Source of the DNA: Phaeotremella fagi
Taxonomy: Eukaryota; Basidiomycota; Tremellomycetes; Tremellales; Phaeotremellaceae
DNA length: 64,000 nt
NCBI GenBank assembly: GCA_001599715.1
Contig: BCHU01000015.1
Coordinates: 310,001 to 374,000 of the forward strand
Direction: 5' to 3'
Of this stretch, positions 3,325 through 49,170 are shown one piece after another. Positions within the stretch are counted from its first letter, which is position 1, and each line of letters begins with the position of its first letter. The notes below the pieces were generated by a model. That model saw only the letters and a program-made list of their open reading frames with translations, was not told the DNA's origin and searched no databases. Position numbers and translations under genes: made by a program.

Positions 3325-3903
3325 TCACTCATCCCAAGAAACAGTACCATCCATTTGGAAAAGACCCTCGATTTTTTTATAAAGATACCATTGCGGGTCG
3401 GAGATCCAATTACCCGTGAACGCTCCCATGACCGCCGCGTCGACTTCTGCTGTACTCATATGAAATGGTACTAACTCTTGAGCTTGAGTGATTTTCTCGA
3501 AATCAAAGGAGAGGTTCGGAGTGAGCGGTTCACCATTTTCTTTGTAGAAAGTTGATCCTTTGAGACGATATTTCTCATCCAAAGGCATGATTGTTCTGAT
3601 CTTACCATTCTCCTCATCTTTTTTTGTATAATAGCCAACATGGCAGAAATAGAAACCGAAATCGAAAGGTTCTTTGGTGCTACCCTCGATATCGTTGATG
3701 ACTAGTTGGTAGCGAAAAGAGCGACGGGATGTGGGGGAGGAGGTCTTCGGTTTTTGGTCGTGTGTAGATTGAGCCGGATCGTCGATACTCATTGTCGCAT
3801 CACTTTCGAGAGAATTGGAGCTGAACAGAGTCGCATAACTGGGTGGTGGATCGTCCATTGTATGGTCGGAATCGATAGAGTTGGATCGTGGACGATTCTC
3901 CAT
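3325..3903 (-). CDS. Orphan tandem-duplicated protein, family A copy 1
   Basis: A single-exon ORF of 192 codons that I do not recognise. Residues 1-70 are Ser/Pro/Asp-rich and probably disordered (starting MENRPRSNSIDSDH). The rest looks folded: SFRYQLVINDIEGS, then MPLDEKYRLKGSTFYKENGE, and an extreme C-terminus GTVSWDE. There is no signal peptide or membrane segment, so it is probably intracellular. The neighbour at 4,535-5,080 shares the start (RPxSIDSD), the central PLDxKYRLxGS and the end TVSWDE, so the two are tandem duplicates. The pattern 'beta strand + GS ... YRLxGS ... GTxxx-end' also recalls the family D array at 44.7-50.6 kb. No function is assigned. Confidence 0.75.
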   Translation of the reverse strand: MENRPRSNSIDSDHTMDDPPPSYATLFSSNSLESDATMSIDDPAQSTHDQKPKTSSPTSRRSFRYQLVINDIEGSTKEPFDFGFYFCHVGYYTKKDEENGKIRTIMPLDEKYRLKGSTFYKENGEPLTPNLSFDFEKITQAQELVPFHMSTAEVDAAVMGAFTGNWISDPQWYLYKKIEGLFQMDGTVSWDE

Positions 3904-4534
3904 AGTTGATTGTTTATCAGAAAGCGGTATACTGTAGACGATGACTATGGATAGAAGTCAGTGATTAACTGTAACTGCCAGAGGATGGATAAGAGGCAAG
4001 ATGATGTTAAAAGTAAAAGTATTGTATTCTAATTGTTAACTTGAAAATACTTACAATATTTACTTTGGGTGGGCGGGTGGCAAAAACCAAAAGTGGAATG
4101 AAGAAGAGAAAAGAAATTACTAGCAATGTCCTTCCCTAAATCTTTTTCGAAACGAAGGCTCACAGATCAGTCCTTGACTTATCGGCTTTCGGAGAGACGA
4201 GGAAGTTGTCCAAGACAAAGGATCTGGAAATACTTTTGAAGAAACGATCAAAGGTTGGGAGGTCATTTTCCCGACATACTGTACTGTAGCTTTTGCCAGA
4301 ATAATCTTGGGCAGCAAAAGTTGAGGGGTGTTTCCTCTCTTCGATCGCAGGGCGCAGCTTCATGTGGTGTACAATGCTTGTTTTACCGACTCATGAATAC
4401 AAATGATATCTCAATGCATACATATATCTGTTCTGATCTCGTATTCACCTCCTTGACAACCACTGGCTTCAGAATTCTCGCTACCTTTAACTCAGTCATT
4501 CAATCCTCCTCTTAAAACTAGAGCACTACACAGT
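3904..4534. promoter_or_regulatory. Region between the two family A genes; candidate 5'UTR intron of copy 1
   Basis: No convincing coding region. On the minus strand a splice donor (GTAAGT, complement of 4049-4054) and a plausible acceptor near 3,944 would define a 5'UTR intron of about 110 nt. Just upstream of the donor lies TTTTTGCCACCC (complement of about 4,074-4,086). The same pairing of donor and TTTTGCCAC is seen before most family D genes. Short ORFs at 4,120-4,515 overlap each other and look random. Confidence 0.4.
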
Positions 4535-5080
4535 TCACTCATCCCAAGAAACGGTACTGACTAAATGGAAAGCATTTGGGATATCTACCCAGTCGTATAG
4601 TGATAACTCAACTTTCCTACCCTCAAATACTGACATGAAAGCGGTGTCAAAGTCAACCTGACTTTGGGCCATGAGTGGTTCTTTGCGTTGAAGAGGTAAC
4701 CAACCCAAAACTTCGATAGTCGGATTTTGAGAGAGAGGTTCACCTGATTCAGTGAGTAGATTAGACCCGTAGAGGCGATATTTGGTGTCGAGAGGAATGA
4801 CAGATTCAACCTTGAGAGTTTTCCCAGTTTGACCATCAATGTAACCAATACCGATAAGGGAGAAGCTGATGTCGTACGGTTCGATTTTGGAGCCTTCGAG
4901 ATTCTTTACGAGTAGGTCGTATGTGAATGATAAACGATGAGTGTTATCAGGAGCTTTGGTATCTCTCGTTGCATCTGTTTCGAACGAGTTGGCTCTTGAT
5001 AAAGTTCTAGATGGGACTTCTGGGTGTTGAACGATTTCGTAATCGGAGTCGATAGATTCTGGTCTTGGAACAGGTTCCAT
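4535..5080 (-). CDS. Orphan tandem-duplicated protein, family A copy 2
   Basis: Single-exon, 181 codons, paralog of the gene at 3,325-3,903. Shared features: a short disordered N-terminus (MEPVPRPESIDSDYEIVQ), a strand ending in NLEGSK matching NDIEGST in copy 1, VIPLDTKYRLYGSNLLTESG matching the same central block, and the end STVSWDE. The stop-proximal DNA is also nearly identical between the copies (ACTCATCCCAAGAAAC, 4,538-4,553 and 3,327-3,342), so the duplication included the 3' end. Unknown function; probably soluble and intracellular. The upstream TTTTGCCAC signature seen for copy 1 was not found here. Confidence 0.72.
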   Translation of the reverse strand: MEPVPRPESIDSDYEIVQHPEVPSRTLSRANSFETDATRDTKAPDNTHRLSFTYDLLVKNLEGSKIEPYDISFSLIGIGYIDGQTGKTLKVESVIPLDTKYRLYGSNLLTESGEPLSQNPTIEVLGWLPLQRKEPLMAQSQVDFDTAFMSVFEGRKVELSLYDWVDIPNAFHLVSTVSWDE

Positions 5081-5541
5081 TGTAGTGAAGCTGGGTGCAG
5101 ATTGTGTGTCTTCTTGTTTCGATGAGATTTTAGGTCAGTGAGTAGAATAATCACTGTTTGTCGACTAATCAGTATAGAATTGGAATACTATATTGTTCAC
5201 TGGTGAAGAACTGATCAGAGTTGAACAAAGACAGAGGATAAGAAACGAGTTGGTGAAAAATATGTATGCTACTATGAATTGAGACTCAGATAGAAGAAGG
5301 CTTTATCATAAAAGGAGGTGTTTATTTCGGGAATTCAGTCTTTCAGAGAATAGATGACGTTCATTCAGAGATAATCGAAACAGGGTCTCTCCTTGGTTGA
5401 AACACCTTGAAACTCCCACAGATGAGTCGTTCTTTATGTGTGTAAGCTTAACACTCGACTTACAACATACCAACTTCCGTTCACATTATTCTACATAAAT
5501 TTACTTACCAAAGCATCATCCAATCTCACTCATATTCGATC
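5081..5541. promoter_or_regulatory. Divergent intergenic region between family A copy 2 and family B copy 1
   Basis: About 460 nt separating two divergent orphan genes. It is AT-rich and has no ORF worth reporting. It presumably holds both promoters. A direct ATG context (ATCATGACC) marks the start of the plus-strand gene. No repeat or known motif was recognised. Confidence 0.4.
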
Positions 5542-6384
5542 ATGACCGTTTCCAACCCATTCTTAGTTCCGTTTAGTGAGGATGACATGGAAAAGATTAC
5601 AAGGGAGACCAAGAAGATGTTAGCAAGAACTTACAATTTCATTGGCACCGCTGAAGGTATGAGTGAGCTGGATTAAGAAGCTTGGTGTGCTGATGAATAT
5701 ATGACAGAATACAACACCTGTAAATCGTATTCCACTGCGTCACAAACTTCACAGTCTAGATTTGACAAAGAGCTAACGCTCATCCACTATAATCTTCTTT
5801 CATCCTGTACATCTAACTTCAACCTTAAAGATGGAGTGAAAACCATTCTTGAATACTGGGGAAAGGGGACATCAGCAGCTGAAAGGCATTGGATGAACAG
5901 AACACAGAAAACCTTGAACGTCGTCAGTGAAGTCTTTGGAACGACCGAAATTCCACGTCAATTGGTAGAAGAGACTGCAGCAAAAATCCTCACTGGCAAC
6001 ATGGGTGAATATCTCGGATGGTTAGAGAGGAAAGATGGATCCAAAAGTCGTTTTGGTAATAACGGGAATCTCTCAGAGGAAGAGATCAAGACGATAGAAA
6101 ATGATCTGAATTTTACGGGTCTCAAATTTCGAAACCTCCAAGCTGCAATCTCGAGAAACTACCCTGAAAATACCGACAAAGAAACTGATACGAGGTTGAT
6201 TCAGTTGCTTTCCTGCGGGAAACTTTGTGAATCCAAAGAAAGAACTACTAAAGGTTTTGATGTTAAAGGAAGTAATGGGTCTTACTTTGCTGATGAAAAT
6301 TCTTATGTTAGACGGTCTGTGTTATCGGAACAAAATCAAATTGTTTTCGCTGATTTTGACAGAATGTTTGCGGGGTGGAAATAG
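5542..6384 (+). CDS. Orphan tandem-duplicated protein, family B copy 1 (intact)
   Basis: Two exons (5,542-5,656 and 5,708-6,384; intron 51 nt, gtatga...acag) give 263 residues. Exon 1 encodes a leader with no signal peptide (MTVSNPFLVPFSEDDMEKI). Exon 2 holds conserved blocks found again in the next gene: HYNLLSS, DGVKTILEYWGKGT, AAKILTGN, GWLERKDGS, and QLLSCGKLCESKER with a paired-Cys SCGxLCESKER motif. It is predominantly helical and charged with no membrane segment. I recognise no family. It is kept intact while the downstream copy has lost its frame. The start was chosen because the same exon-intron structure exists in copy 2. Confidence 0.72.
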
Positions 6385-6971
6385 TTAGTGTCTTACGTTC
6401 ATACTTTGGATCTGCATGTATATTAGGATTACCGATTCCGGTTTGCTGTAGATCTTGTACTTATAAGCACTTCAAGCCAAACAGGCAGATGATTTAGTCC
6501 AAAATGTGATTCGACCTTTTCTGCTTACTACCATTCTCCAATTCAAGGATCATGTATCTATTCAAGGTTTCTCAGGGGAGAACAGTAAGCTGCTACTTTC
6601 AGCTATACTTTCAGCTATAACGAATTGAAAAAGGATCAAGAGAAAAGAAAGATCTTTTTCATGCATAGTGATGTGTAGTTTCATTGAGGCATAGTCATCA
6701 TAAAAGGCATGTAATCAAAAGATCTGAGTTCTTCAAAGGAGTCAATAATTCAAAGGAACTGATACAAATTCCACAAAAGAAATGAGTCATCTCCTTTGGC
6801 TCACTATCCCTGAAACTCTTGTAGCTGAGAGTTAATGTATCGTAGTTGTATGGACTTTGAGCTCCGCTTCACTCGCGTAAGACGGCCATTGACATCACCC
6901 TATATATTGCTATACAGATTCTGTGTGATCCCCAGAATCTCTCAAACCAACAATAAAATCTAATCTGCTCA
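6385..6971. other. Intergenic region between family B copies
   Basis: AT-rich, no ORF or recognised element. It should contain the terminator of copy 1 and the promoter of copy 2. CCTATATATTGCTATA at about 6,899-6,914 is a possible TATA-like stretch some 60 nt upstream of the copy 2 ATG. Confidence 0.3.
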
Positions 6972-7881
6972 ATGGTAAAGACAACTTATCACCCTCTTCT
7001 GATTCCGCGCGATCATGAAAATCTGAAAACGATGGCAAGCGACATCAAGCGGACGCTTTCGGCGACGTACAATTGTAGCAATTCTGCGACAGGTAAGAGT
7101 TTATCAGGGATTGGATGACTTTATTGACGGCATATCACAGGTAACAGATACGACAAAATCAATCCCGAAAAAGAACTAGCGATAATGCGATATAATCTAC
7201 TATCTTCTCCCAGCATCAAATCAGACCTCCAGGATGGTGTACAGACAGTTCTTGAATACTGGGATAAGGCTACTCCAGCTACCATAGGATACTGGAGAAT
7301 AGAACAAAAGAGACCCTTGATTTCATCGACACGACGTTAGGTACGACTAATATCACTCATCAACTCGCAATGGAAATGGCCGCGACGATATTGACCGGTA
7401 ACTTGGAGAATCTTTTGGTTGGTTAGGGAGGAAAGATGGGTCGAGCGTCAACTTCAAAGATTGTGGTCATCTCTCCGAGCGGGAAACTCAGACCATAAAA
7501 AGTGATTTGGAGTTTCCGACGCTCAGGTTCGAAAATCTTAGACAAGCGGTCTTGAACAATAATCCCGATAGCGTTGTTGACGATAGAGAAAGGAGAGTGG
7601 TTCAGGTGTTGTCTTGTGGAGAGCTGTGTGAATCGAAAGAGAGAATTGGTATGGTGTCTGGCTTCTATAAAGATGAGATACCCGATAGGAAGGGTGGCAG
7701 AGAGGATGATGATGATGAGGAGGAGGAGGAAGAGGGGGAAGAAAAAGATAACCGGTCTGGCTCTGCTTATAAAGGTCTCAGCTCTGGTGAAAAAGTTCTT
7801 TCTGTGAAGCTGTCCGACCTCATGCAAAACCCAGAAATGCTATCTCTTTTAGCTCAGCTCCTTTCTATGGGTGGTCAGTAA
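6972..7881 (+). pseudogene. Family B copy 2, frameshifted
   Basis: Same layout as copy 1: exon 1 from ATG at 6,972, intron 7,093-7,140, exon 2 to the stop at 7,881. Compared with copy 1 there are two single-base deletions, one between about 7,317 and 7,336 and one near 7,402-7,410, each moving the reading frame. Between them the shifted frame still reads like copy 1 (TLGTTNI, AATILTGN), and after the second the frame resumes (GWLGRKDGS, QVLSCGELCESKER). No intron of normal length explains either shift. The C-terminus differs from copy 1: a run of Asp/Glu (7,706-7,745) then SDLMQNPEMLSLLAQLL. It could be a pseudogene or sequencing error in two places; resequencing would settle it. Confidence 0.6.
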
Positions 7882-10858: not shown

Positions 10859-11617
10859 TTAACTACGAGAAGGGTAGACACCTTGAAGAGCAATCACAAA
10901 ATTCATGGTGAGATAAGGAGGAAGTGGAGTATTGACAGTACCCGAGACAGGAAGTGTGACACCCAAAGGAACTCCACCACCAGTGTTATCGGTTGTGACT
11001 GAACCAGATGGGATAATAGTGACTTGGGAGGTACCACCATTGACATTCACTGTTGGACCTGAGGCTCCAGGTGGTTGGAAAATGTTGGCAACTCCAACAC
11101 CACTGTTCGAACCTTGAGATAAAGAACCACCGCTTTGCGCATTCAATTGACCAGCTGATTGCATAATCGAGATTTGGCTGGTGAACGATGCTGAAGATGA
11201 TGAGCCCGTGAAATGACCAACATGATTGTGAGCAGGTAAGTTGTTCACACCAAGAGTGATTGCTCCATTGGCATTAACGCCCTGACCAGCGAAAGAGAAA
11301 CTAGTAGCCCCAGCACTTTCACCCAAGTCATAATTTTGGAGTCCTGGACCTTGACCGAAATGATTAGGGAATCTACCTCGAAGATCTGGAAGGGCGAAAG
11401 TAGTTTGGCCATTTCCACCATAGGTCGTACCAAGGAGTGAGAACAGAGCAGTGTTCTGTGCAATGGGAAGTAGTTGACCATTACAGAATGCCCAACCATT
11501 GGGAGCAAAATTACCAGCAAAGATCATGATCTGACCAACGAAAGGATCAGATTGAGCGTGGACGCCAAGAAGACAGGCAGCTGCGCCGATTAGGTAGAGG
11601 ATTGTATTTGACACCAT
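10859..11617 (-). CDS. Secreted phage-tail-collar (microcystin-dependent protein-like) protein
   Basis: Intronless, 252 residues. Residues 1-22 form a secretion signal (basic start, hydrophobic core YLIGAAACLLGV, cleavage near HAQ). The mature part follows the plan of bacterial tail-collar / MdpB-like proteins: GQIMIFAGNFAPNGWAF, CNGQLLPIAQNTALFSLLG, TTYGGNGQTTFALPDLRGRF, then NNLPAHNHVGHF, a Ser/Gly/Asn-rich middle, and PYLTMNFVIALQGVYPSR at the end. In bacteria these proteins sit near phage-tail-like or surface structures and their role is poorly known. The family is bacterial and viral. Finding it intact, without introns and with an added eukaryotic-style signal in a fungal gene neighbourhood suggests horizontal transfer followed by domestication. 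It is probably secreted or bound to the wall; the ligand is unknown. Confidence 0.88.
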   Translation of the reverse strand: MVSNTILYLIGAAACLLGVHAQSDPFVGQIMIFAGNFAPNGWAFCNGQLLPIAQNTALFSLLGTTYGGNGQTTFALPDLRGRFPNHFGQGPGLQNYDLGESAGATSFSFAGQGVNANGAITLGVNNLPAHNHVGHFTGSSSSASFTSQISIMQSAGQLNAQSGGSLSQGSNSGVGVANIFQPPGASGPTVNVNGGTSQVTIIPSGSVTTDNTGGGVPLGVTLPVSGTVNTPLPPYLTMNFVIALQGVYPSRS

Positions 11618-12238: not shown

Positions 12239-13349
12239 ATGTTTGGCTTTCTAATCCCCACGGTTCTCTTGATCATCCAGTCTTCTTTAGCTGCTCAGAC
12301 TGTTGGTAGTTTTGGTACGGAAACGTATACCTGTCCAGATCGTCAGACGATAGACACAGCATTTTTCAATTATTGTACGTTGTTGGTGTTCTTTGAAGTC
12401 AGAAAGCTAACGAACTGTTAGGCTCCGGTACTGCATCTGGTGCACCTTTGATTGGTATCTCGTCAAATGTAGACTACAACAGTCCATACACTGGCACCTA
12501 CATCACCAAAGCAACCGACTACACCTTAACATGCGAGTACCAAGCTTCTCCCTCAGTGAGTGATGAAATAATTTTTGGGTTATGACAGACGATTCTGATA
12601 TAATGTGAAAGGATATTTTCTATTGTACCTACACGGCCGGAGGAGGAGTAAGTTTCGTTTTTTCTCCCGTTATACTTTGTACTTTCTCATGACAAAAACT
12701 GACGAAACAACGCTAGACACCTCTTACAGCCCAAGGAGGTAATGACAACCGATGTCAAACATTGTCACAAACTGTGCCACAGCCCTCTGCAGGGGTCAAC
12801 TATCGAAGAACTGGTCTCGTCAGTGGAAGAGCAAACACTGGTTTAGGTAAGGAATTCGTTTTCTTCAAACACACATATAGTGGTACACACAGACTGATTT
12901 ATTTTTGATAGCTCCACTTTTCACTTGTCCATTTACAAGCAGTGACAACAACATCCATGTTACCGATACTGAGATCGATGCAGGCGATCTTGCAGTAATG
13001 AATGCAAACGGATTTGGTCAGACTGTTCAAACCACTCAACTCTTTTATACATGCGCGACGACACCGGATACATCTTGTTTCTATGTTCAGGTAATTATTT
13101 CTCACAACAGAAACAACCGTTCCCAGCTGACAAAATAACCAAAAGACCGGTTCAACAATAGCATTCGTAGGATCTGCCGGAACCCTCACCTCATGTCCTA
13201 CTACGTTATGCAACGCGATCTTGACAGGTACTGGGAACATGCGAAGAGGGGTTTTCTTGGAAGGAAACGCTTTAGATCTGAAGAGACGTCAAGTTGATAC
13301 TGGTTCTTTGAGAGATACACTCAAAAGACGATTGGGTAAAGTAAAGTAA
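12239..13349 (+). CDS. Secreted Cys-containing protein with C-terminal dibasic sites
   Basis: Six exons: 12,239-12,374, 12,422-12,555, 12,612-12,647, 12,717-12,846, 12,912-13,090 and 13,146-13,349. The ATG at 12,239 was chosen over the in-frame upstream one because it begins a clean signal peptide (MFGFLIPTVLLIIQSSLAAQ). The mature part has regularly spaced cysteines (YTCPDRQ, LTCEYQ, FYCTYT, FTCPFT, YTCATTPDTSCFY, TSCPTTLCN), suggesting a disulphide-bonded extracellular domain. The C-terminus carries two KRR sites, DLKRRQ and TLKRRLG, that could be cut by a Kex2-type protease and enclose QVDTGSLRDTL. I recognise no family. Exon 3 is only 36 nt. Confidence 0.78.
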
Positions 13350-25333: not shown

Positions 25334-26205
25334 CTAATCTTTAATATCCCTTGAATGATACTTCCTAGATTGCGCAGGACCTTGATTTTCCTTGTAATAC
25401 TTTCCTTCTCTCGGTCGAGGATGCTTTTCGGTGTACCCACTGTCTGATGCTGAAGCACCGTATCCCGTTGAACTACCGTATGTGGTGTGGCCACCGTATT
25501 TGGCTGAATTGTTTGAACCACCGTTTCTACTTGATTCACCGTTTCGATATGAACGACTGGTTCTGGTTGAACCATGATTTCGATTTGAACCATCGTTTCG
25601 ACTTGAACCGTAGAATTGATTTGAAGCGATAGGTTCGCTCTCGACCTTATTTTGAGCCCATAAGCTTACTTGACAAGTACCGCTTGCTTGAGATGACTCA
25701 TTGTACTTCCCAAAACAGGCCTTGACTAAACCTATGGACGTTTGAAAATCCATACTGGTGTTGGTGAAGAAGGTTCCTTGATATACGAATAGCCCCGCGG
25801 GAATACTATCGTCGACCTTGTTCGATCTTGAGAAAACATTTGGATCCCGGTTGCATGCTGTGACGCTGAAAGCGGTGACTTCCCTACCTTTACGTTGGAG
25901 AGGGGAAACGATAAGGTTCCAGACTCCCACACACGCTGTAGGATTGAACACTTCCCTATGCTCGCTACTATGACCACTCATGATGTTATTTGAAGAAAGT
26001 TTAAATGAAGTTCAAAAGATGAAATTCAAGTGAAGAAGAAGAAGAAGAAGAAGAAGAAAGAAAGAAAAAGAAAAGTTGAACAAAGACTATCTCTGACCTG
26101 GTCTGTTCAGTTAGAAGGCCCCCAAATTGCACAATAACTTTTTTCGTGTTATTTTTTTTCAATCTCAGAACAAAGGTTCTCGACCGATAAAGATAATATC
26201 CAACA
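25100..26205. repeat. Tandem duplication unit 1 (family C)
   Basis: A block of about 1.1 kb holding a family C gene with its 3' and 5' flanks. Identical runs shared with unit 2 include TCCCATAAAACATTCATCGC, AATAAGGTTGATTCACTA and CTACTACTATCACCTTTCTC in the 3' flank, and AACAAAGACTATCTCTGACC and AGAACAAAGGTTCTC in the 5' flank. A GAA repeat lies at about 26,033-26,058. Confidence 0.8.
25334..25981 (-). CDS. Orphan tandem-duplicated protein, family C copy 1
   Basis: Single exon, 215 residues, unknown family. Residues 1-120 look folded: GVWNLIVSPLQRKGREVTAF, SVTACNRDPNVFSRSNKVDD, FVYQGTFFTNTSMDFQTS, ACFGKYNESSQASGTCQVSL. The same blocks are found in the next gene (GVFQLSC, FNVTAYKWVSGLFSS, LFVGQKIFQ, ARFKEYNDRNNTCQVVL). 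The rest is a low-complexity tail of imperfect RNxGS repeats (GSSRNDGSNRNHGSTRTSRS) coded by a 15-nt minisatellite, ending in a charged segment. No signal peptide or membrane segment is seen. Start at 25,981 (MSGHSSEHREV) matches the start of copy 2 (MSRHSSKRKVE). Confidence 0.7.
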   Translation of the reverse strand: MSGHSSEHREVFNPTACVGVWNLIVSPLQRKGREVTAFSVTACNRDPNVFSRSNKVDDSIPAGLFVYQGTFFTNTSMDFQTSIGLVKACFGKYNESSQASGTCQVSLWAQNKVESEPIASNQFYGSSRNDGSNRNHGSTRTSRSYRNGESSRNGGSNNSAKYGGHTTYGSSTGYGASASDSGYTEKHPRPREGKYYKENQGPAQSRKYHSRDIKD

Positions 26206-26318
26206 CATTGACAGATGATCAAAGTAACCATTATCTGAGGACAATGTAGGGATAGTACTGCAAGTATACCGTACTCTGTAAGTATACTCATTCTGGTTTT
26301 TTCATAAAAGTCGGAAAA

Positions 26319-27490
26319 CGCAGCAAGTTTATCAATGAAAGTTCCTGTGTAATTTCAACAGGTGATTGAGGGAGTAGTAATTTAGCTTAGTTCTTTTCGA
26401 GGTTATTCAAGAAGAGTTTCCAAGATTGATCTGATTCATTTTAACGCCTCCCATAAAACATTCATCGCAATAAGGTTGATTCACTACTTTCTCATACAAA
26501 CTTAACTACAGACTTCATTACAGAACTCCCTACTACTATCACCTTTCTCAACCTTTCAAACCTACCGATCGACTTGACTTCTTGGAAAATACTGCTTAGA
26601 ATGGCCCCCAAGGAAATTCCTCGCCTTCGTGGTCGTCTTGTATCGCAGACCAACCGCTTGAACTTGGATCACCGTATTGGAAATCATCGTATTGACTTGA
26701 ATCACCGTATTGTGAACCACCGCATTGTCTTGAACCACCGTTACTAGATGAACCGTGGTTTCGATATGAACCATTGGTATCCGTTATATCATAGTAGTTT
26801 GGATCTGATTCACCGTATGGTATTGAACCAGAGTATGGATTTGAATCAGCTTCTCGTCGTTTAGTATGAATACAGAATTTGTTGCAACTTGTTTTACAAC
26901 GGGTTGAATAATCGTTCTCGGGAGCTTCGGTCTGGTTGTTCCTGGTCACGCTTAAGACTACCTGACAAGTATTATTTCTATCATTATACTCCTTAAAACG
27001 CGCCTGCACTGAACCGCTGGGCGTATCGAAATAGCTAATTTCATTGGGCTGAAAGATTTTTTGACCGACGAATAGACTCTTGGTGGTATCGACCCAGTCG
27101 CTTGGTGATGAGAATAACCCTGAAACCCACTTGTAAGCTGTGACGTTGAAACCGGCCTCTCCAGAGAGACCTCTGTAAGCATTGTTACAGGAAAGTTGGA
27201 AGACTCCCACATGACGTGTATGAGGGGGCTCTACCTTACGTTTACTACTATGTCTACTCATGATGTTATTTGAAGAAAAATTAAATGAAGTTCGAAATGA
27301 AGAAATTAAAGTGAAAGAGGAGAAGAAGAAAGAAAGAAAGAAAAAGACAAAGCTGAACAAAGACTATCTCTGACCTGGTATTTTCAGTCGGAAGGCGCCG
27401 TCGCTAAACTGCACAATGAATTTACTCAAGTTATTTATTTTTCAATCACAGAACAAAGGTTCTCTAGCTCGACAAAGATAATATAATATC
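26319..27490. repeat. Tandem duplication unit 2 (family C)
   Basis: Second copy of the 1.1-kb block, about 115 nt from unit 1 and in the same orientation. Flanking DNA is more conserved than much of the coding tail, so the duplication is fairly recent while the tail has changed quickly. Confidence 0.8.
26596..27261 (-). CDS. Orphan tandem-duplicated protein, family C copy 2
   Basis: Single exon, 221 residues from ATG at 27,261 (MSRHSSKRKVEPPHTRHVGV). An ATG further upstream at 27,360 would add a hydrophobic, Phe/Ser-rich stretch that comes from GA-rich 5' flank DNA and is not shared by copy 1, so it was rejected. The folded part matches copy 1. Copy 2 has an extra Cys-rich segment (STRCKTSCNKFCIHTKRR) and a different tail: YRNHGSSSNGGSRQCGGSQY, then GDSSQYDDFQYGDPSSSGW and an acidic end. 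The function is unknown; it is probably soluble. Confidence 0.7.
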   Translation of the reverse strand: MSRHSSKRKVEPPHTRHVGVFQLSCNNAYRGLSGEAGFNVTAYKWVSGLFSSPSDWVDTTKSLFVGQKIFQPNEISYFDTPSGSVQARFKEYNDRNNTCQVVLSVTRNNQTEAPENDYSTRCKTSCNKFCIHTKRREADSNPYSGSIPYGESDPNYYDITDTNGSYRNHGSSSNGGSRQCGGSQYGDSSQYDDFQYGDPSSSGWSAIQDDHEGEEFPWGPF

Positions 27491-39506: not shown

Positions 39507-42500
39507 ATGTCACGCCCCAACCCTACCTCCAACGTCTCATTCCGTGATGCCCCACCATCCAGACGATCCAACAACATCCCAGAACAACCTCCACGTCCAC
39601 CAGCTAAAAATCTACCTTCCAAAACTTCTTTGACTACAACTACATCCGGTACGAGTTCTGGTTATCAGGGTGGGAATTTAGGTTATGGCGATGACGGGTA
39701 TGTCGATGTTGGTAACGTTAACCCACAAGGGTTTTCGGAAAGTAATGGTGCAGATGTTAGACGTAAGAAGAGTATGGTTAAACCTGATAGAGAGAGGATC
39801 GATCCTGGTCATAGACTTTGGCATTATCGTGAACATGCTGCTGATGATGGTGTTAGAGTTCAACCTAGTTGTAAGTTGAGAGTTAGATTGAAATTATCTT
39901 AACTTACAATTTATTCCCAACAGCAACTGGTAATCAACCTTACAACTCCAGATCTGGCGGTGCGAATTTACGTCGTGGGAAATCATTATTAGCAAGAGAA
40001 CAAGATGAAGGTGGCCATGAATCCGGATTAAACATATTTAAACGGGGTGCAACAATTCGTAGAAAAGCTTCACAAGCTACCCCTCGTCAAGCACCAACTG
40101 CGACTCAAACCAACAGAATCGCTACCGGCGCAGTCAAAGTTCATCCAGAAGAGAAACTAGGTTGTTTAGGCAATTTCGCTCCAGGTCCAAAAGACGCTTG
40201 GATGGTTTACTGTTTCTTGTTGACTTGTTTAGTTCCTGGATTCGTCCTTCGTGGAGTCTTCGGGAAGAAGACACCAGAAGCTCAAAGAGCTTGGAGAGAG
40301 AAGATCGGGATCGTCAGTATCTGCGCTAGTTTAATGGCAGTTGTCGGTTTCGTTACTTTTGGTTTCACCCAGGCTGTCTGTGGAACTCAGGCTTTACGTA
40401 TCGCCGGTGGTCAAGCTAATAATGGATCTTTGATTATCAACGGGTTCGATTACGATTTCTCGAAATGGAATCATCCAGCTGCTGGAACTTATTTCAATGG
40501 TTCAGTTAACCCTCTTTATTCAGAGCAATGGTTATACGGGGGAAGATATGCTGGTGGTTCAGATGCAAGTTTCCTTTTCCAGAATGTCAACGATAATTGT
40601 TTGGGTGTCATTAATCCTGCTTCGACAACTACCATCACATGGAATCAAACTAGTGGTGGTAAAGCTATGGCATATTATTTCCCTTGTAACCTACACGATC
40701 AAAATGGTACCACCCCAATCAATCAAACTGGTTACAACAGTCCTATCAATTGTCATGACAGTAATTACGCCAGAACGAATTTCTCAAACACCATCCCAAC
40801 CGCGGAAATCTATTATACTTGGGATAAAATTCAGGATTCAACAAGAAATCTCGCTGTTTACAAATCTGCCGTACTCGATCTTAATCTTTTGAACTGGCTC
40901 AGTACCACTCAAGTCTCTTATCCTGCTTTCTTCGATACTATCAAAGTCGCGAATGCGACATACCAAGGAAGGGATATTACTGCAACAATTGAACGAGCTG
41001 GTCTTCAAAAGGAGGCCATGTGTTTATCGGATATCATTCAAGTCGGTTTCCTAGATTCCATCTCGATCGGTTGTGTGGCATCGGACGTCGTTCTCTACGT
41101 TTCGTTGGTTTTCATTCTAGGTGCAGTCGGAATTAAATTCGGTATGGCAGTCATCTTTGGTTGGTTCCTTTCATGGAGATTAGGTAATTTCGAAGGTGAA
41201 AGTTATCAACAACGTATGAAACGGGCTGCGGAAATCGAAAATTGGACAGATGATATTTATAAAGCTGCACCAGGTTATTTGAGACCTAACGCTAAGAATG
41301 GTAATCAAAGAAAAACTGTTTTCTTACCTACGACTTCTAGGTATAGTAAAGCTGAGCCAATGTTGGTTAATCAATCGAGACCTAGTACGACTTATGGTGG
41401 ATACGACATGCCAAGACGTCAAGCTTCAAGTATGTACGGTAACAAACTTGGTCCTGGTACACCACCTGGTTCTCCAATGATTCGTAATTCAAGATCATCA
41501 ACTTCTTTACCTTTCAGGGATGAATCGCATTCTAATCTCGCGGATTCAGCATGTCCTTTCCCACTTCATAACGTTATTCCACAACCTTCACCTGATTTCG
41601 AACCTTTCCAGTATCCATTGGTTCATTCGATATGTTTGGTTACCGCTTATTCAGAATCTGTTGAAGGTTTACGAACAACTCTTGATTCATTGGCTACGAC
41701 TGATTATCCAAACAGTCATAAATTGATACTGGTCATTTGTGATGGTATGGTCCGAGGTGCCGGTTCAGACAAATATACACCGGATATCTGTCTGAGCATG
41801 ATGAAAGAACTCGTCGTTCCTGCTGACGAAGTCGAACCTCATTCTTACGTCGCTATCGCCGATGGTCATAAACGACACAACATGGCTAAAGTCTATGCTG
41901 GATTCTATTCGTACGATAGCGAAACGGTCGAACCATCAAAACAACAACGTGTGCCCATAGTCCTAGTCGCCAAACACGGTAACCCACTCGAACACAACGA
42001 TCCAAAACCAGGTAACAGAGGTAAACGAGATTCGCAAATCGTTTTAATGTCTTTCCTTCAAAAAGTAATGTTCGACGAACGAATGACAACGTTCGAATAT
42101 GAATTCTTCAATTCCATTTGGAGATGTACCGGGATTTCACCCGATCGTTATGAAACCGTCCTTTGCGTTGATGCTGATACTAAAGTTTTCCCGGATTCTT
42201 TGACTAGGATGAACGCTTGTATGGTTAATGATCATGATATCATGGGATTGTGTGGAGAGACGAAAATCGCTAATAAATCCGAAACTTGGGTTACTATGAT
42301 TCAAGGTATGTTGTGTTGATTTTATATTAAGGCAAGACGTTGTGCTGACTTTGATAGTCTTTGAATACTACATCTCGCATCATCTTACTAAAGCTTTCGA
42401 ATCCGTGTTTGGTGGTGTCACTTGTTTACCAGGTTGTTTCAGTATGTACCGAATCAAGGCACCTAAAGGAGATCGTGGATATTGGGTACCAATCCTAGCC

Positions 42501-44206
42501 AATCCAGATATCTGTGAACATTACTCGGAAAACGTCGTCGACACTTTACATAAAAAGAATCTATTACTTTTAGGTGAAGATCGATATCTCTCCACTTTGA
42601 TGCTTAAAACGTTCCCAAAACGTAAAATGGTTTTCTGTCCTCAAGCGGTTTGCAAAACCATCGTACCGGATGAATTCAGGATTTTGTTATCTCAACGTCG
42701 ACGATGGATCAATTCGACTGTTCACAATTTATTCGAATTAATGTTGGTCAGAGATCTTTGTGGAACGTTCTGTTTCTCAATGCAGTTCGTCGTCTTTATG
42801 GATTTAGTTGGTACTTTGGTTCTACCTGCTGCTATCTCCTTCACACTTTATATTATCGTGGTTTCGATTATCCCTCAATCGATCACTCATATTGAAAAAC
42901 CGGTAGTTTCGTTGATCCTACTTGCTTTCATTTTGGGTCTACCAGGTGTACTTATCGTCATCACTTCGAGGAAAGTCGCTTATGTCGGTTGGATGTTGAT
43001 GTACTTGATTTCTCTACCTATCTGGAATTTATGTCTACCGGCTTACGCTTTCTGGCATATGGACGATTTCTCATGGGGTGAAACTAGAAAAATCGTTGGT
43101 GAAAACAAAGAAGGTAATCATGGTGATAAAGAGGGTGAATTCGATTCCAGTCATATCATCATGAAACGTTGGGTCGAATTTGAGAAGGAAAGAAGGTGGA
43201 GGAATGGAACTACGTCAAGAGATTCTTATTATGACGTTGTTCGATCGACTTCACCTAAAGGTCCATCTGGTTCCAACAGATATTCTGTCGTGTCGACCTC
43301 GGAAACTTATGCTTCTGGATTCGGTACCACGGAATCTAATCCACTGTTTAGACAATCACAATCTTTCGCTTCAATGTCACAAGCTGGGTTATACAATAAT
43401 TCTCCGGATATCAGATCAGAACATAACGTTTCGAATCTCGCTTTGCCTGCTGCTAGAAGTGGTACACAATTAGGTCCACCATTGGGACGTGATCCTTCAC
43501 CTGCATCAACTGAATCTGGTGGTTCGGGTTCTGCCAATCGATTGGAAAGAGGTGTAAGCGACGATCCATCTTCGTTCTCACATTCAAGTTCTGGTACAGG
43601 TTTCGGAGCGGGATCTGGAAATTATCCTTATAACCCGTACAACAGCGATTCATATCTCGATGAAGCTGAACAACCTATTCTACCATCTCATGGAGGGTTG
43701 AGTGCGGCTTCTTTCTCGTCTCCAACGGTTTCACCTGATTATAGATCGAACCAGAATCAACAGAACACGCAATATAACGTTTTCAGTGAACCTGAAGATT
43801 ACAGATCGACGTCGAACCCGATCACACCGATTAAAACTAATTTCTCTGCTCAATCGCAGCAATCTCCTTATAGTCCTTCTCAATCTCAACCACCACCACA
43901 ACAGCAACAGCAACGTCAACCTTCACACGGTCGTGGATTCAGTTTGACTGATCCCGGTATAGTACCTGTACCATCTCAAAGTGGTAAACAGTTAGATCAT
44001 CAACCGGTTAGAAGAGTTTCCAAGGCTGCCACTGCAACTGGAACTAAACGAAGTTCGAGAACTAACATGGTTAGTCCTGTTAGTACTTCAAGTCATACTT
44101 CTAGTTTACCACCTGGTGCTGTAAGTTTAACGTTTGGATGCTGTGGTTTGATATCAACTAACGAATTGATTTATAGGCTCCACCTCAATCGCAACATCGA
44201 TATTAA
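39507..44206 (+). CDS. Class IV chitin synthase (Chs3-type)
   Basis: Plasma-membrane glycosyltransferase (family 2) that polymerises UDP-GlcNAc into cell-wall chitin. Four exons: 39,507-39,870, 39,924-42,305, 42,358-44,120 and 44,177-44,206; 1,512 residues. After a disordered N-terminus come [20 protein letters not shown] (membrane span), a large lumenal part including [20 protein letters not shown] (cytochrome b5-like region of class IV enzymes), spans near [20 protein letters not shown], and the catalytic domain: [53 protein letters not shown] and [13 protein letters not shown] (the QRRRW motif, near residue 1,027). Further spans follow, then a Ser/Gln-rich cytosolic tail. The last exon is 30 nt. 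There is no myosin motor, which excludes classes V and VII. Confidence 0.94.
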
Positions 44207-44689
44207 GACATTGATACATATGAATATACGAAGAACACTTGTTTTGTTGATTTGATTTCACCCCCGGACATTCCACCCTCCCCTCCACCTCACTAATGAT
44301 CAATGAATATATTAATCCAACTCGTATAAATCATCAAAACCTTTCCTCTTTTTCCCCCTGTTTATTGTTTCTTTGATAGATATAGTACTCTTGAACTTTT
44401 TATATCCTTTTCCTTTCCTGTTCTTTCATTCAGTTTCGTAGTTTTCTTTCTGTTTTTTTGTTATATACAGTACACGTCTGTGATTACGATGGATCAATGA
44501 ACATTTAGCTCTTAGTCTCTTGGACGAGGTGGCAGTTCCGTGTGGCACTTGTACTTGTACAGGATTCAACATTACTGTCGACGTCACGTTCAATCTTACA
44601 TACTCGCAAAGGAAAAACTAACTAACTAACTAACTAACTACACTGCAAAACACGTCTTTGAAACAACAAAGGATTACACCTTTACCCTC
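44207..44689. other. 3' flank of chitin synthase gene; AACT repeat
   Basis: About 480 nt between convergent genes. It holds T-rich 3'UTR-like DNA and a perfect short tandem repeat of AACT units at about 44,618-44,640. No gene. Confidence 0.45.
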
Positions 44690-45145
44690 CTAAAAGTTTG
44701 GAAGACAAAAAGTACCAACCAACTTCGTAGAGTCGGAAGATTGAGCTGGAGGTCTAGCTTCCCATTCGTCGACGAGCTTAGAAGACTCCCCTTCAACACC
44801 CCATCCATCGTCGTCGAATGCCTTAGAGAACACTCTTTTCGCTCCCCCCATCTCCCAAGAATCCCCCGAAGCAGATGTTTGATCTTGATCTGGAACAAAC
44901 CAAACCTTCTTACCATCCATATTTGAGATTCTAGACGGCGACCCAAACCCATCTCCATCAATTATGAAATACCCTTTCCCGACTTGAAAAAAGTCTCTTA
45001 ACCTTGAGGAGACGTCGTTATCGGGATTATCGAACGACGGAGCTGGGTGACCTAGTTTGAAACTTTTGCCGGTGACGCCTGACGTTTGTTGACTTTGGAT
45101 GTAGAGAGTTCCTTTGCTGGAGTTTAATGATGTGAAGTTTGACAT
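44690..45145 (-). CDS. Orphan array member, family D1 (divergent)
   Basis: Single exon, 151 residues. It keeps the family outline in weakened form: an early strand SSKGTLYIQSQQ, a SFDNPDND segment, RLRDFFQVGKGYFIIDGDGF in the place of the LFKxxHxYxL block, KVWFVPDQDQ in the place of ICYMxDF, and the end LVGTFCLPNF matching ITGTFFLP. It is the most diverged member at the edge of the array. No signal peptide or membrane segment. Candidate 5'UTR intron: donor at 45,367-45,372 and acceptor near 45,179. Unknown function. Confidence 0.68.
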   Translation of the reverse strand: MSNFTSLNSSKGTLYIQSQQTSGVTGKSFKLGHPAPSFDNPDNDVSSRLRDFFQVGKGYFIIDGDGFGSPSRISNMDGKKVWFVPDQDQTSASGDSWEMGGAKRVFSKAFDDDGWGVEGESSKLVDEWEARPPAQSSDSTKLVGTFCLPNF

Positions 45146-45884
45146 TTGAGGTTGGTGTTTGAATTTGTTTACTTGGGGCTGATTGGATAGGTTTGGGAGA
45201 TGGAAACTAGGAGAGGGGTTGTTAGTACGATCTGTTTTTCGAGATTAAAATGGTTATAAGGGTAAGAAGGCTATAAGGTGGTTGGAAACTTGGGAGGGAT
45301 ATAGTGTGACGATTGCAACATGAATTAAGAAAACAAGAGAGAGAGAAAACACAAATAGAGGACGGAACTTACTACTCGTGGTGAGAAGGATATTCAAAAA
45401 ATGATTAGTATAGTTGAAGATAACAATCAGAGTTCAAGTTGAAAAGCTCAACATACTGTAAATACATATATTATATAACAGCATAAAAGGTGCTCAGACA
45501 AAAGAGGACTCTTACAGTAATGTTTTTTAAGATAAAAGGTCTTCGTTGAGCTGAAAAGAGAGAAATTGCGTCATGGCATTTGAAGCACATTCTGCACTAA
45601 GTAATGAAAAGATCTCTAACATTGTGTGTTAAGAGACTCGAAAGAAAAGATTGAGTACAAGGTAGCAAGATGAATTCTGTAAGAAAATTCGAGAAGAGTG
45701 AATTACAAGTCTCATATCAGCTTACTGTACGTCGTCACAAATTCTGGCGTGTGGCTAGATGATCTTTTGCCAATGATAAAGGCGCCATTCACAGATTACA
45801 TCCACACACTTGAATACTACTGACTTCAATCTCAACCTTGTATTCTTCCTGATTCTTCGCCCTCCTGTCCTCCTTCTAATTAAG
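45146..45884. promoter_or_regulatory. Intergenic D1-D2
   Basis: About 740 nt with no gene. The D1 leader and promoter lie here. The palindromic element seen before D2, D3 and D6 was not found upstream of D1. Confidence 0.3.
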
Positions 45885-46379
45885 CTACACACTTTGATTA
45901 CTTCCTTCCAACTCTTCTTCAGCTTCCTTGGGAAGGAAGAACGTACCGGTGATGATAAAGCTTGGTGGTTTACGTATAGCTATGGCGTGGGTGGGTGGGG
46001 GAGAAATAACCTCAGTTCTTGAGGCCTCCCATTCCCCCAATTCTTTTATTACTTCTGCGGCCCACTCTCGGTACTCTGGAGTGATGATGTAGGAATCTTC
46101 GAATTTGAAATCTTTCACGTAACAGATTACGTTGTTTTCGTCGTTGTTCTCTGAAATTTCGAGGGTATCGGTACCGACAAGTCGGTATTGATGTTTGGTG
46201 TTGAAAAGCGTTTTTAAGGTTGTGGCAGCCTCATCTGATGATGTGGACTGGAAGCTTTGATCATTGGTATAGAAACTGGCTTGCTTGGTACACCCGGAAG
46301 ATACGTTATACAAACCGTTGAAGTGATGGACATAGAGTTTTCCCTCACAAGAGTTGTCATAATCGATTGTACTGGGCAT
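45885..46379 (-). CDS. Orphan array member, family D2
   Basis: Single exon, 164 residues, unknown family. Blocks: MPSTIDYDNSCEGKLYVHHF, QSFQSTSSDEAATTLKTLFN, KHQYRLVGTDTLEISENND, VICYVKDFKFED, and the C-terminal FIITGTFFLPKEAEEE. The segment between ICYV and ITGTFF is variable in length across the family. The protein is hydrophilic, rich in Glu and Ser, and has no signal peptide. It was read in one exon like the other members, in contrast with the intron-rich neighbours. Confidence 0.72.
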   Translation of the reverse strand: MPSTIDYDNSCEGKLYVHHFNGLYNVSSGCTKQASFYTNDQSFQSTSSDEAATTLKTLFNTKHQYRLVGTDTLEISENNDENNVICYVKDFKFEDSYIITPEYREWAAEVIKELGEWEASRTEVISPPPTHAIAIRKPPSFIITGTFFLPKEAEEELEGSNQSV

Positions 46380-46778
46380 TGATGTTTGACTAATTTCATG
46401 TATGAGCTATTGTTTATAGGAGAGAGAATGTGCGTGGGATACGGATGTGTAGTGGACATTCGAGTATTGTATCGAGTAAGGAAAGGATAAGGACAACTTA
46501 CAGGAAATGGAAATTTGTGAGTGGCAAACGAATAATGTGGGGAGGGAAAAAAACTAATATGCAACTTAATGGTAATGTATATATGTCTTCAAGTTGTTCA
46601 GTGAAGACAAATATCCTTTGATCATCATTTGAAAAGAGCGAAAAAACAACTGAGCTGGGAAAGTTGATCAAAGGGGCGAAATAATGTACCCAACACGTTT
46701 CAATGAAACAAGCTGCACTCGTCATTCATATCCCTCTACAACATTCACAATTTTCTCGTTGGAAACAATACATCCCCC
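46380..46778. promoter_or_regulatory. D2 upstream region with shared family elements
   Basis: On the plus strand: donor complement ACTTAC at 46,496-46,501 next to AGTGGCAAA (coding strand TTTGCCACT), palindrome-like GTCTTCAA...GTGAAGAC at 46,585-46,608, and CCTTTGATC at 46,615-46,623. A candidate 5'UTR intron spans about 46,390-46,501. From about 46,680 the DNA matches the 3' flanks of D4 and D5. Confidence 0.55.
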
Positions 46779-47345
46779 CTAGTCTAATACCAATGACTCC
46801 AATCTGTCTCTGATGCTTTGTTCGTCCTCCTTACTTTCCAAACTACTGTTTTGACTTGCCTCCGTTTCCTTTTCAGCTTCTTTGGGAAGGAAGAAAGTAC
46901 CGGTGATGGAGCATGGTTGTTTTTCGTTTTCGTCTTGGAGCTTCTGCGAGGGACGGGGAGGAAAAGTAACCTTGGTAGTTCCTAAGGATCTCCAAAATTC
47001 ATCCACAGCTTTGTGTTTTGCCGCTCTCCACTCTTGGTACTCTGCACTGTAGTTATCTTCACATCGGAAATCTCTCATGTAGCAGATAACGTTGTTTTCG
47101 TTGTCGTTCTCTGAAATTTCAAGGATATCAGAACCAAGAAGTCGGTATCGATGGTCGACTTTGAAAAGTTCGTTTAAGGTTGTAGCAAACTGATTGGGTG
47201 ATGCGGACACGAAGCTTTGAGTGTCGATATTGAACTGATTTTCCATTGGATATCCAGGTTCTACTTTTTGACAACCACTGAAGTTATAGACGTAGAGAGT
47301 TCCCTCACAAGATTTCTCATAATCAACTGTACTTGTACCGGGCAT
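46779..47345 (-). CDS. Orphan array member, family D3 (full-length type)
   Basis: Single exon, 188 residues; the clearest representative. YEKSCEGTLYVYNFSG opens the core, then QSFVSASPNQFATTLNELFK, VDHRYRLLGSDILEISENDN, NVICYMRDFRCED, a charged segment of about 60 residues (YQEWRAAKHKAVDEFWRSLG), and SITGTFFLPKEAEKETEAS with an acidic tail. The core suggests a small beta-rich fold closed by a helical insertion. Unknown function; probably cytosolic or nuclear. Confidence 0.74.
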   Translation of the reverse strand: MPGTSTVDYEKSCEGTLYVYNFSGCQKVEPGYPMENQFNIDTQSFVSASPNQFATTLNELFKVDHRYRLLGSDILEISENDNENNVICYMRDFRCEDNYSAEYQEWRAAKHKAVDEFWRSLGTTKVTFPPRPSQKLQDENEKQPCSITGTFFLPKEAEKETEASQNSSLESKEDEQSIRDRLESLVLD

Positions 47346-47772
47346 TATTGTTTGATGTTTTAAGGCGCTGGTGGAATAACTGAAGTTATGTATGAGCTGA
47401 CAGCATTATGGGAGACAGTGATCAAGATATATATGTTGTAGTGGATGTTTGGAGGAATAAATTGATTCACAGTGAAGAAAATGGACAACTTACAGGAAAG
47501 AAATTTGTGAGTGGCAAAAGGATATTGCGGTGAGGGAAAGAAACTAAATTGCGACCTAGTAGTTCTGTATAATATATGTCTTCAAGTTGTCCATTGAAGA
47601 CAGATATCCTTTGATCATTGTTGAAAGAGATACAGTAAAAAGGACTGATTTGGGCAAGCTGATGAAAGGGCGAAATATTGTACCCGACACGTTTCAACAA
47701 AACAGGCTTCATCGTCATTCATATTCCTCTACAGCATTCACAGATTTCTCATTGAAAACAATACATCCCCGT
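47346..47772. promoter_or_regulatory. D3 upstream region with shared family elements
   Basis: Same order of elements as upstream of D2: donor complement ACTTAC at 47,488-47,493 followed by AGTGGCAAAAG, the inverted repeat GTCTTCAA-N8-TTGAAGAC at 47,578-47,601 and CCTTTGATC at 47,608-47,616. Beyond about 47,690 it is the 3' flank of D4. Confidence 0.6.
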
Positions 47773-48183
47773 TCAGTCTAATACCATCGAGTCCAAATTC
47801 TCTCCTATGCTTTTCAACTCACTATCGTGGCTTGCCTCTGTTACCTCTTCAGCTTCTTCGGGAAGGAAGAAAGTACCGGTGATTGAGCTTGGGTTGCCAC
47901 GTTCATAGCGGAAGTTTTCCATGTAACAAATCAAGCTCTGTTTGTTGTAGTTCTCTGAAATTGTGAGGATACCGTGACCTTGAAGATGGTATCGATGGCC
48001 AGATTTGAAAAGATTGTTTAAGGTTGTAGCAGCCTCATCTGATGACGCTGACTGGAAGCTTTGAGGGTGAACACTGAACCGGTTTTCGACTGAACCTCCA
48101 GGGGCTTGATATCCACCACCGATCAAGTCATAAATGTAGAGAGTTCCCTCAAAAGACTTTTCATAATTGACCGTATTGGGCAT
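47773..48183 (-). CDS. Orphan array member, family D4 (short form)
   Basis: Single exon, 136 residues. It has the core (YEKSFEGTLYIYDLIGG, QSFQSASSDEAATTLNNLFK, SGHRYHLQGHGILTISENYN, LICYMENFRYE) but the charged insertion present in D2, D3 and D5 is missing: GNPSSITGTFFLPEEAEEV follows almost at once. So the insertion is dispensable for whatever the core does, or D4 has lost part of its activity. The start codon and 5' flank are as in the other copies. Confidence 0.72.
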   Translation of the reverse strand: MPNTVNYEKSFEGTLYIYDLIGGGYQAPGGSVENRFSVHPQSFQSASSDEAATTLNNLFKSGHRYHLQGHGILTISENYNKQSLICYMENFRYERGNPSSITGTFFLPEEAEEVTEASHDSELKSIGENLDSMVLD

Positions 48184-48621
48184 GAATGTTTGATGTTGTA
48201 AGGTGTTGATTGGAAAACTAAAGTCATGTATGAGCTAACATGTCTACAGGAGACAAGAGGCTAAATAAAGTTTGTATGTTGTGGTGGATGTTGGAGTATT
48301 TCATCGATTTTGAAAGAAGAAATAACAAGAACAACTTACCAGAAATTTGCAAGTGGCAAAAGAATATTGGGGAAGGAAAACCTAAAAATACAGCTAACAG
48401 TTGTGTGGAGTATCTGTCTTCATTTGTCCACTAGAAGGCAGAATGATTTCCTTTGATCGTTGTTTCAAAAGAAATAAAAATGACTGAATAGGCAATACCC
48501 AATGAAAGGGGAAAAATTCCCAACACGTTTGAAAGCAAAATGCTCCACTAGTTTCATCCATCGTCATTCATATTTCTCTACAAGATTCACAGATTTCTCT
48601 ACGGAAACAATACATCCCCAC
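48184..48621. promoter_or_regulatory. D4 upstream region with shared family elements
   Basis: Donor complement ACTTAC at 48,334-48,339 followed by AGTGGCAAAAG, a decayed form of the GTCTTCA...GAAGGC inverted repeat from 48,416, and CCTTTGATC at 48,450-48,458. Beyond about 48,560 it is the 3' flank of D5. Confidence 0.55.
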
Positions 48622-49170
48622 TCAGTCTAACATTGACTTCAATTTTTTTCCAAAGCGTCTCAAAGTACTATGTTGGCTTGCCTCTGTTACCTCTTCAGTA
48701 CTATGTTGGCTTGTCTCTTTTACCTCTTCAGCTTCTTTGGGAAGGAAGAATGTACCGGTGATGAAGCTTGCCCGTTTGTTGTATTCTTCTTTGATATTCT
48801 CCCAAACTTCAAATCCCTCACTGTTTTCCTTTGCTTGGGCTTTTGCTGCTTCCCACTCTAGAGGTTTTGACGTGTCGATACGTTCAAAGTGGAAATCTTT
48901 CATGTAACAGATTACGTTCTTGCTGTTGTAGTCGTTCTCTGAAATCGCAAAAAGATTATTGACTCCGGAAAGATAGTATTGATGGTCGACTTTGAAAAGC
49001 TTTTTCAAGGTTGAAGAAACCTGATTTGGTGACGAGGATTGGAAGCTTCGTTTATCAATCATGAATTGATTTCCCCTTACAACACCGGGTGCTGAATAGA
49101 TTGAACCATTGAATTGATAGGTGTAGAGAGTTCCCTCACAAGAATTATCAGAGTCGACTGTACTGGGCAT
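48622..49170 (-). CDS. Orphan array member, family D5 (with internal 33-nt duplication)
   Basis: Single exon, 182 residues: SDNSCEGTLYTYQFNGS, RSFQSSSPNQVSSTLKKLFK, VDHQYYLSGVNNLFAISEND, NVICYMKDFHFE, a charged insertion (EWEAAKAQAKENSEGFEVWE), and FITGTFFLPKEAEEVKETS. After this the segment EVKETSQHSTE / EVTEASQHSTL is an 11-residue tandem repeat from a 33-nt duplication at about 48,665-48,730. Otherwise the same plan as D3. Confidence 0.73.
   Translation of the reverse strand: MPSTVDSDNSCEGTLYTYQFNGSIYSAPGVVRGNQFMIDKRSFQSSSPNQVSSTLKKLFKVDHQYYLSGVNNLFAISENDYNSKNVICYMKDFHFERIDTSKPLEWEAAKAQAKENSEGFEVWENIKEEYNKRASFITGTFFLPKEAEEVKETSQHSTEEVTEASQHSTLRRFGKKLKSMLD

Follow-up and report, generated by a model that had tools for sequence, protein, structure and literature searches.

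How does a fungal genome come to carry a gene for a predicted secreted protein of the tail-collar type, and what might such a protein do? The question is raised by a 64,000-nucleotide stretch of Phaeotremella fagi DNA (GenBank assembly GCA_001599715.1, contig BCHU01000015.1, positions 310,001 to 374,000), here called the window, which holds an intronless gene for a protein with the Collar domain PF07484. A first-pass annotation of this DNA had proposed that the gene was gained horizontally and that a secretion signal was added afterwards. The explanation that we arrive at, and to which we assign as a whole a probability of roughly 60%, is that a stand-alone bacterial collar gene was acquired and then duplicated into five genes for secreted, probably surface-binding trimeric proteins. 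It is directly supported by the domain, by the presence of five copies with intact reading frames, by a single fungal-type clade that has bacterial relatives, and by the similarity of a monomer model to phage fibre tips.

Five intronless collar genes in one genome

As described at first pass, the window gene is an uninterrupted open reading frame (ORF) of 252 codons plus a stop, and the four tail-collar blocks quoted at that time are all present in its product. We add that it lies on the minus strand and that the 75 bases 5' of its ATG are open in the same frame. When the protein was scanned against Pfam with E values up to 1, PF07484 was the only family returned and no second domain was found. 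The match covers the whole profile (positions 1-57 of 57) and scores 107.2 bits (cut-off, 24; E = 4e-31), which confirms the family assignment. NCBIfam gave no match to the protein, while 16 PHROGs families matched it, mostly tail fibre or collar families (best E, 3e-18). The top PDB entry by sequence was the T4 short tail fibre (1ocy; E = 3.3e-8; residues 27-145 of the window protein), in whose alignment the fungal LPAHNHVGHF pairs with the H-K-H stretch of T4 gp12. An alignment of 63 homologues has 14 invariant columns, including C45, Y66-G67-G68, P77, P128, H130, P234, G246, and P249. H130 is thus kept in 63 of 63 rows, H130 and H132 are both present in 61 of 63, and the H-x-H motif occurs in 7 of 7 fungal-type rows.

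A search with the window protein against the assembly, which totals 22.6 Mb in 24 contigs, identified five near full-length copies with no internal stops: the window gene (contig C15), one gene on C1, two on C3 that stand in tandem about 740 bases apart, and one on C11. The PF07484 profile returned the identical five genes, each above the cut-off, and five is a lower bound for the copy number. Each copy is a single ORF of 245-252 amino acids (aa) with no visible intron, and pairwise identities range from 36.9 to 51.4%. The G+C content at third codon positions (GC3) is 0.32-0.41 in the five genes, and the window's chitin synthase ORFs have 0.33-0.34. Over the ten copy pairs, Nei-Gojobori estimates gave dN of 0.42-0.73 and dS of 1.2-2.2; these values and the five open frames are consistent with long purifying selection. 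A bacterial amylase gene that was transferred to Agaricomycotina gained many introns soon afterwards (as an excerpt of PMC3584928 relates). The absence of introns in all five collar genes is notable, yet it gives no date for the transfer.

Relatives and origin

The protein and profile searches each scored at least 7999 candidates, of which the best 120 are considered here. Most of the best 120 protein matches are nameless, and the named ones are all bacterial except CI109_103869 of Kwoniella shandongensis (P0026), which already bears the name "Phage tail collar domain" in UniRef. This fungal protein of 247 aa has a signal-like N-terminus and matches the window protein with 50% identity across 246 positions (38-50% for the five copies), but it forms one row among the best 120 matches, compared with five copies here. 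It tops the profile search together with a nameless metagenome protein, P0009, which is as long as the fungal proteins, has a signal-like N-terminus, and was taken as fungal-type from its sequence alone. Among the matches listed, these two account for the fungal and fungal-type occurrence outside this genome, and together with the five copies they make up seven fungal-type proteins. In an adenylosuccinate synthetase stretch, 145 of 168 positions are identical to chain 5i33 and 99 of 168 to 1iwe, the enzymes of Cryptococcus neoformans and mouse, respectively, which would put the fungus close to Cryptococcus and Kwoniella.

The window protein is 41-46% identical to 14 bacterial-type rows, 13 of which are nameless, metagenome proteins among them. 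The similarity runs collinearly from end to end of the mature chain and takes in the C-terminal PYL..NY.IAL.G.(Y/F)P block. Whole-length bacterial relatives (220-231 aa) include proteins of two Undibacterium isolates (loci L012 and L029) and of a Ramlibacter metagenome-assembled genome (MAG; P0159). The Undibacterium proteins, examples of the stand-alone bacterial type annotated as microcystin-dependent protein or MdpB, share with the fungal one the collar, NLPxHTH, the needle region, GSVTV..NTGGG, and PYLxxNYIIALxGIFPSR, but they lack the signal peptide that the fungal copies have by eye. A search with residues 112-252 alone returned only P0166 and P0167 from 289 candidates; it missed even known fungal rows and is therefore weak.

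Ten ORFs were scanned at the two Undibacterium loci and at a Sphingomonas MAG locus (L006). In Undibacterium, the collar genes adjoin genes for sulfotransferases, DUF6916, and an aspartyl hydroxylase, and L012 additionally shows APS kinase and PrmC. DUF6916 likewise adjoins the collar gene of L006, and stand-alone bacterial collar genes thus have this neighbor at three of three loci examined (L012, 1158-5617; L029, 1153-4769; L006, 6613-6930). A Pseudomonas syringae island also holds collar, sulphotransferase, and acetyltransferase genes together, according to a portion of PMC2745422, and the grouping of collar with DUF6916 and sulfotransferase genes may be a bacterial module. Co-transfer of these partners was rejected because PF21880 (DUF6916) and PF13469 (Sulfotransfer_3) have no match in the fungal genome (controls were positive in 1 of 14 and 2 of 14, respectively). 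Asp_Arg_Hydrox is unmatched there as well, but its controls were equally blank, so this result is uninformative. The ORF lists of L012, L029, and L006 showed no phage genes on inspection by eye. The existence of stand-alone chromosomal relatives in bacteria indicates that the phage label reflects the name of the domain and does not identify the source. The first-pass attribution to phages is corrected in this respect, since the full-length relatives include proteins encoded on bacterial chromosomes, near which phage genes were not seen.

For phylogenetic analysis, a scan of genome loci gave at least 591 stretches with at least 587 relatives, from which 80, spanning many phyla, were kept. A first tree of 86 rows combined 46 of these 80 loci, 5 of 80 viral-contig loci, 28 other proteins of 167 ids, and the fungal-type rows. 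The rows left out were mostly single-collar ORFs, and L013, L022, and L044 were also excluded after extraction. The seven fungal-type proteins fall on one side of a branch with support of 98/83, which appears in 97% of 200 bootstrap trees (bootstrap unsettled). Midpoint rooting puts them within a group of 44 rows that is otherwise bacterial, metagenomic, or from viral contigs. A second tree of 38 rows picked for length recovers the fungal clade at 96/98. The bacterial affinity suggested at first pass is supported, with the fungal rows as one clade in both trees. The midpoint of the first tree and the taxonomic breadth of the family would place the root among bacteria, whereas the midpoint of the 38-row tree falls on the fungal branch. 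Approximately unbiased (AU) tests on the 38-row tree did not reject a grouping of the fungal rows with 16 others (14 of metagenome type and two from Undibacterium; p-AU 0.377), with P0166 (p-AU 0.536), or of the five copies and P0009 without K. shandongensis (p-AU 0.535).

Taken together, the sequences indicate that the gene was most likely gained from bacteria. The five paralogues and the K. shandongensis homologue argue for an older acquisition followed by expansion. Horizontal gain as first proposed is supported by the bacterial affinity and the fungal clade, but as this older event and not as a private single gain.

Two other accounts of how the gene came to be here have to be weighed. We regard as improbable a route through a virus (a giant virus of eukaryotes or a phage) or another eukaryote, rather than directly from a bacterium. 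In the BFVD library, the model is matched by a Cafeteria roenbergensis virus (CroV) protein (27% identity over 222 columns), an Orpheovirus protein (23%), and, in the collar only, a Pithovirus LCPAC201 protein (61% over 62 columns). BFVD names the first two as collar-domain proteins and the third as a collagen repeat protein. However, the 27% of the full-length CroV match compares with 41-46% for bacterial-type proteins, and the collar alone gives 55-79% in metagenome proteins, which makes the Pithovirus value unremarkable. Fifteen of 80 kept IMG/VR loci also have matches that cover much of the query, but none of the five IMG/VR rows in the tree falls within the fungal clade (giant-virus and protist rows lie outside the trees). 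A phage origin was judged less likely because, among 50,697 phage records searched, 296 match and none covers 80% of the query. Passage through another eukaryote draws on Pb4_109755 (CEO97090.1) of the clubroot protist Plasmodiophora brassicae, a predicted secreted protein of 191 aa that a table in PMC9530463 lists as a putative effector with a Phage Tail Collar Domain; what it shares with the fungal protein is the listed domain, and it is a possible independent eukaryotic gain. Bacterial contamination, or a recent non-functional bacterial insert, is exceedingly improbable, even though the gene is intronless and its relatives are mostly bacterial. The five diverged, intact copies are spread over four contigs, their base composition resembles that of a fungal gene of the window, and the neighboring gene has a putative 47-base intron (GT...CTAAC...AG). 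The window contig measures 416 kb and the contigs of the other copies 1.06-2.41 Mb, which adds to the case that contamination is very unlikely. The first-pass judgment that the flanks are fungal and contamination unlikely thus stands, with fungal-setting Pfam matches as additional support.

Predicted structure, export, and function

The window protein begins with a hydrophobic stretch followed by V-H-A ahead of Q22, a classic signal peptide by eye, in keeping with the eukaryotic-style signal noted at first pass. All signal peptides and cleavage sites in this study were called by eye. Each of the five copies has a signal-like N-terminus, and in most of the seven fungal-type proteins position -1 is Ala and position -3 is small or aliphatic, from which export of the fungal proteins is inferred. 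In the 86-row tree, 14 of the 79 non-fungal rows are extended at the N-terminus by more than 14 residues; the anchor used for this measurement was crude and failed for 4 of the 86 rows. Some nine of these 14 resemble signal or twin-arginine translocation (Tat) peptides (P0093, P0104, L018, L020, L034, L072, L085, L086, and L087). Because about 9 of 79 non-fungal rows are already signal-like, the fungal signal could have been inherited or gained, and its addition after the transfer, as first proposed, is one of two possible histories.

T4 gp12 binds bacterial surfaces. The monomer model of the window protein resembles the tips of T4 gp12 (1ocy) and gp37 (2xgf), with 30% and 15% identity, respectively, over structurally aligned residues. 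The match reaches both chain ends and extends to residue 246. The predicted fold thus agrees with that of the trimeric, H-x-H metal-binding fibre tips of the T4 gp12/gp37 type, to which the fungal protein is further linked by the collar and by its H-x-H motif aligned with gp12. It differs in having no shaft and in having a signal peptide. With no second Pfam domain and with fungal neighbors among the ORFs scanned, it does not have the makings of a tail fibre of a phage virion.

In the scenario that we propose, a stand-alone bacterial tail-collar gene of the microcystin-dependent-protein type would have entered an ancestor of the fungal lineage, probably once, adopted the local base composition, and given rise by duplication to five intronless genes whose products are secreted. 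These proteins would leave the cell by means of their signal peptides, and each would most likely form a homotrimer with the collar and the C-terminal block as its base. The H-x-H motifs of the three chains are predicted to hold a metal ion on the trimer axis, and two long strands of the predicted needle (residues 141-152 and 189-201 in the model) would project the tip loop between them outward. The most likely ligand of this tip is a carbohydrate or another polymer exposed on a surface, which may belong to a bacterial envelope, to a plant or alga, or to the wall or capsule of the fungus itself; different copies may bind different ligands. Export, trimer formation, metal, ligand binding, and targets are what we infer from these data.

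Several points weigh against this explanation. The monomer model has a pTM of 0.51, and the TM-scores of the best Foldseek rows are 0.2-0.4. Phage tips ride on a fibre shaft, whereas the fungal protein is shaftless. The dS values of 1.2-2.2 are near saturation. Mean identity among the copies is 0.42 in the tip versus 0.42 and 0.50 in the strands; the tip is not clearly more variable, and this comparable conservation does not favor a diversifying binding site. Both trees lack an outgroup, the bootstrap of the first is unsettled, and the midpoint root of the 38-row tree lands on the fungal branch, which yields one clade and not nesting. The 15 of 80 kept IMG/VR loci (from 188 relatives) have matches spanning at least 80% of the query, where the span runs from the first to the last matched residue and the contigs (2.1-142 kb, some of them short) are viral by database label. 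Finally, expression, secretion, trimer formation, and binding are predicted properties.

Two different functions can be set beside the proposed one; action on bacteria or at the wall had been raised at first pass as something the product may do. The protein could be structural, a stable metal-locked trimer that is built into the fungal wall, capsule, or extracellular matrix and recognizes nothing foreign. The signal peptide, a needle rich in Gly, Ser, Thr, and Asn, the several copies, the limited variability of the tip, and the CPL1-like gene near the C11 copy all fit such a role, but inspection by eye revealed neither a wall anchor nor a GPI signal nor repeats, and the related fibre tips are receptor binding according to the entry titles of the structure matches. 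We consider this role unlikely. Also doubtful is an effector aimed at bacterial surfaces, whose tip would still bind sugars of the bacterial envelope so as to kill bacteria, aggregate them, or attach to them. Its appeal lies in the bacterial affinity of the protein and in the phage relatives that bind bacterial surfaces, such as T4 gp12 and the receptor-binding fibres described in part of PMC6116203. On the other hand, PF07484 is the only domain present and no lytic domain accompanies it, and the stand-alone bacterial relatives have no demonstrated target here.

Genomic setting and implications

The coordinates of the window gene, its parts, and the adjacent gene are collected below.

Features of the collar gene and its neighbor, in window coordinates
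Feature	Coordinates	Strand	Basis
Intronless gene for 252-aa PF07484 tail-collar protein with signal peptide	10859..11617	-	ORF, Pfam, assembly search
Signal peptide region, residues 1-22; putative cleavage about after A21	11552..11617	-	judged by eye
Collar domain PF07484, residues 28-84	11366..11536	-	Pfam
H-x-H motif, H130 and H132; predicted six-histidine metal site of trimer	11222..11230	-	T4 gp12 alignment and conservation
Tip loop, residues 153-188; candidate ligand-binding region	11054..11161	-	model secondary structure, segment identities, inference
C-terminal block PYLTMNFVIALQGVYPSRS, residues 234-252; expected to pack back on collar	10862..10918	-	alignments; model match to residue 246
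Neighboring gene, first exon; marks fungal setting, outside the system	12239..12374	+	putative intron 12375-12421

The N-terminus of this neighbor is signal-like by eye, and the gene has no Pfam match. Pfam scans of ten window ORFs placed five above the cut-off: an MFS protein, two chitin synthase ORFs (39887-44252), and two aldehyde dehydrogenase ORFs, with no match for the two closest neighbors scanned. Three of the ten ORFs around the other copies scored above the cut-off: two carboxylesterase pieces (C1) and the CPL1-like gene (PF21671; L176, 803-1465, minus strand), which lies about 3 kb from the C11 copy. Rfam and tRNA scans of the window returned nothing.

Four tandem ORFs of one family occupy 45888-49203 on the minus strand (45888-46406, 46782-47405, 47776-48234, and 48625-49203; 37-47% identity in the pairs reported). 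The ORFs at 44693-45244 and 50080-50676 resemble them in style by eye and are not matched to them. Adjacent diverged duplicates also occur at 3328-5134 (minus strand, 36% identity), 5677-7878 (plus strand, 50%), and 25337-27363 (minus strand, 41%). With these three pairs and the tandem family, local tandem duplication is frequent in the window.

The collar domain itself has long been known, and related giant-virus models and the Plasmodiophora effector entry exist. Literature searches, some of which paired collar or phage-tail terms with fungal or yeast terms and whose coverage excluded most subscription journals, revealed no published description of a fungal branch with several secreted copies, and "tail collar" is absent from the main text of a Cryptococcus and Kwoniella genome paper (PMC11185503). 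A more speculative and rather improbable reading is that Tremellomycete yeasts have turned a bacterial fibre-tip fold to their own use: several genes would encode secreted trimeric adhesins, locked by a metal, that recognize surface polymers of bacteria or other organisms, and soil protists such as Plasmodiophora would have recruited the fold independently.

Tail-collar proteins have been treated as a subject of bacteria and phages. If the proposed explanation is true, a five-member family with signal peptides, whose frames have stayed open despite drift to about 45% identity, would mean that the fibre-tip fold works off virus particles and outside bacteria. As small soluble proteins that can be produced in the laboratory and screened for ligands, its members would offer a simple test system. 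The fungal family may also reveal the role of the common, unexplained stand-alone relatives in bacteria.
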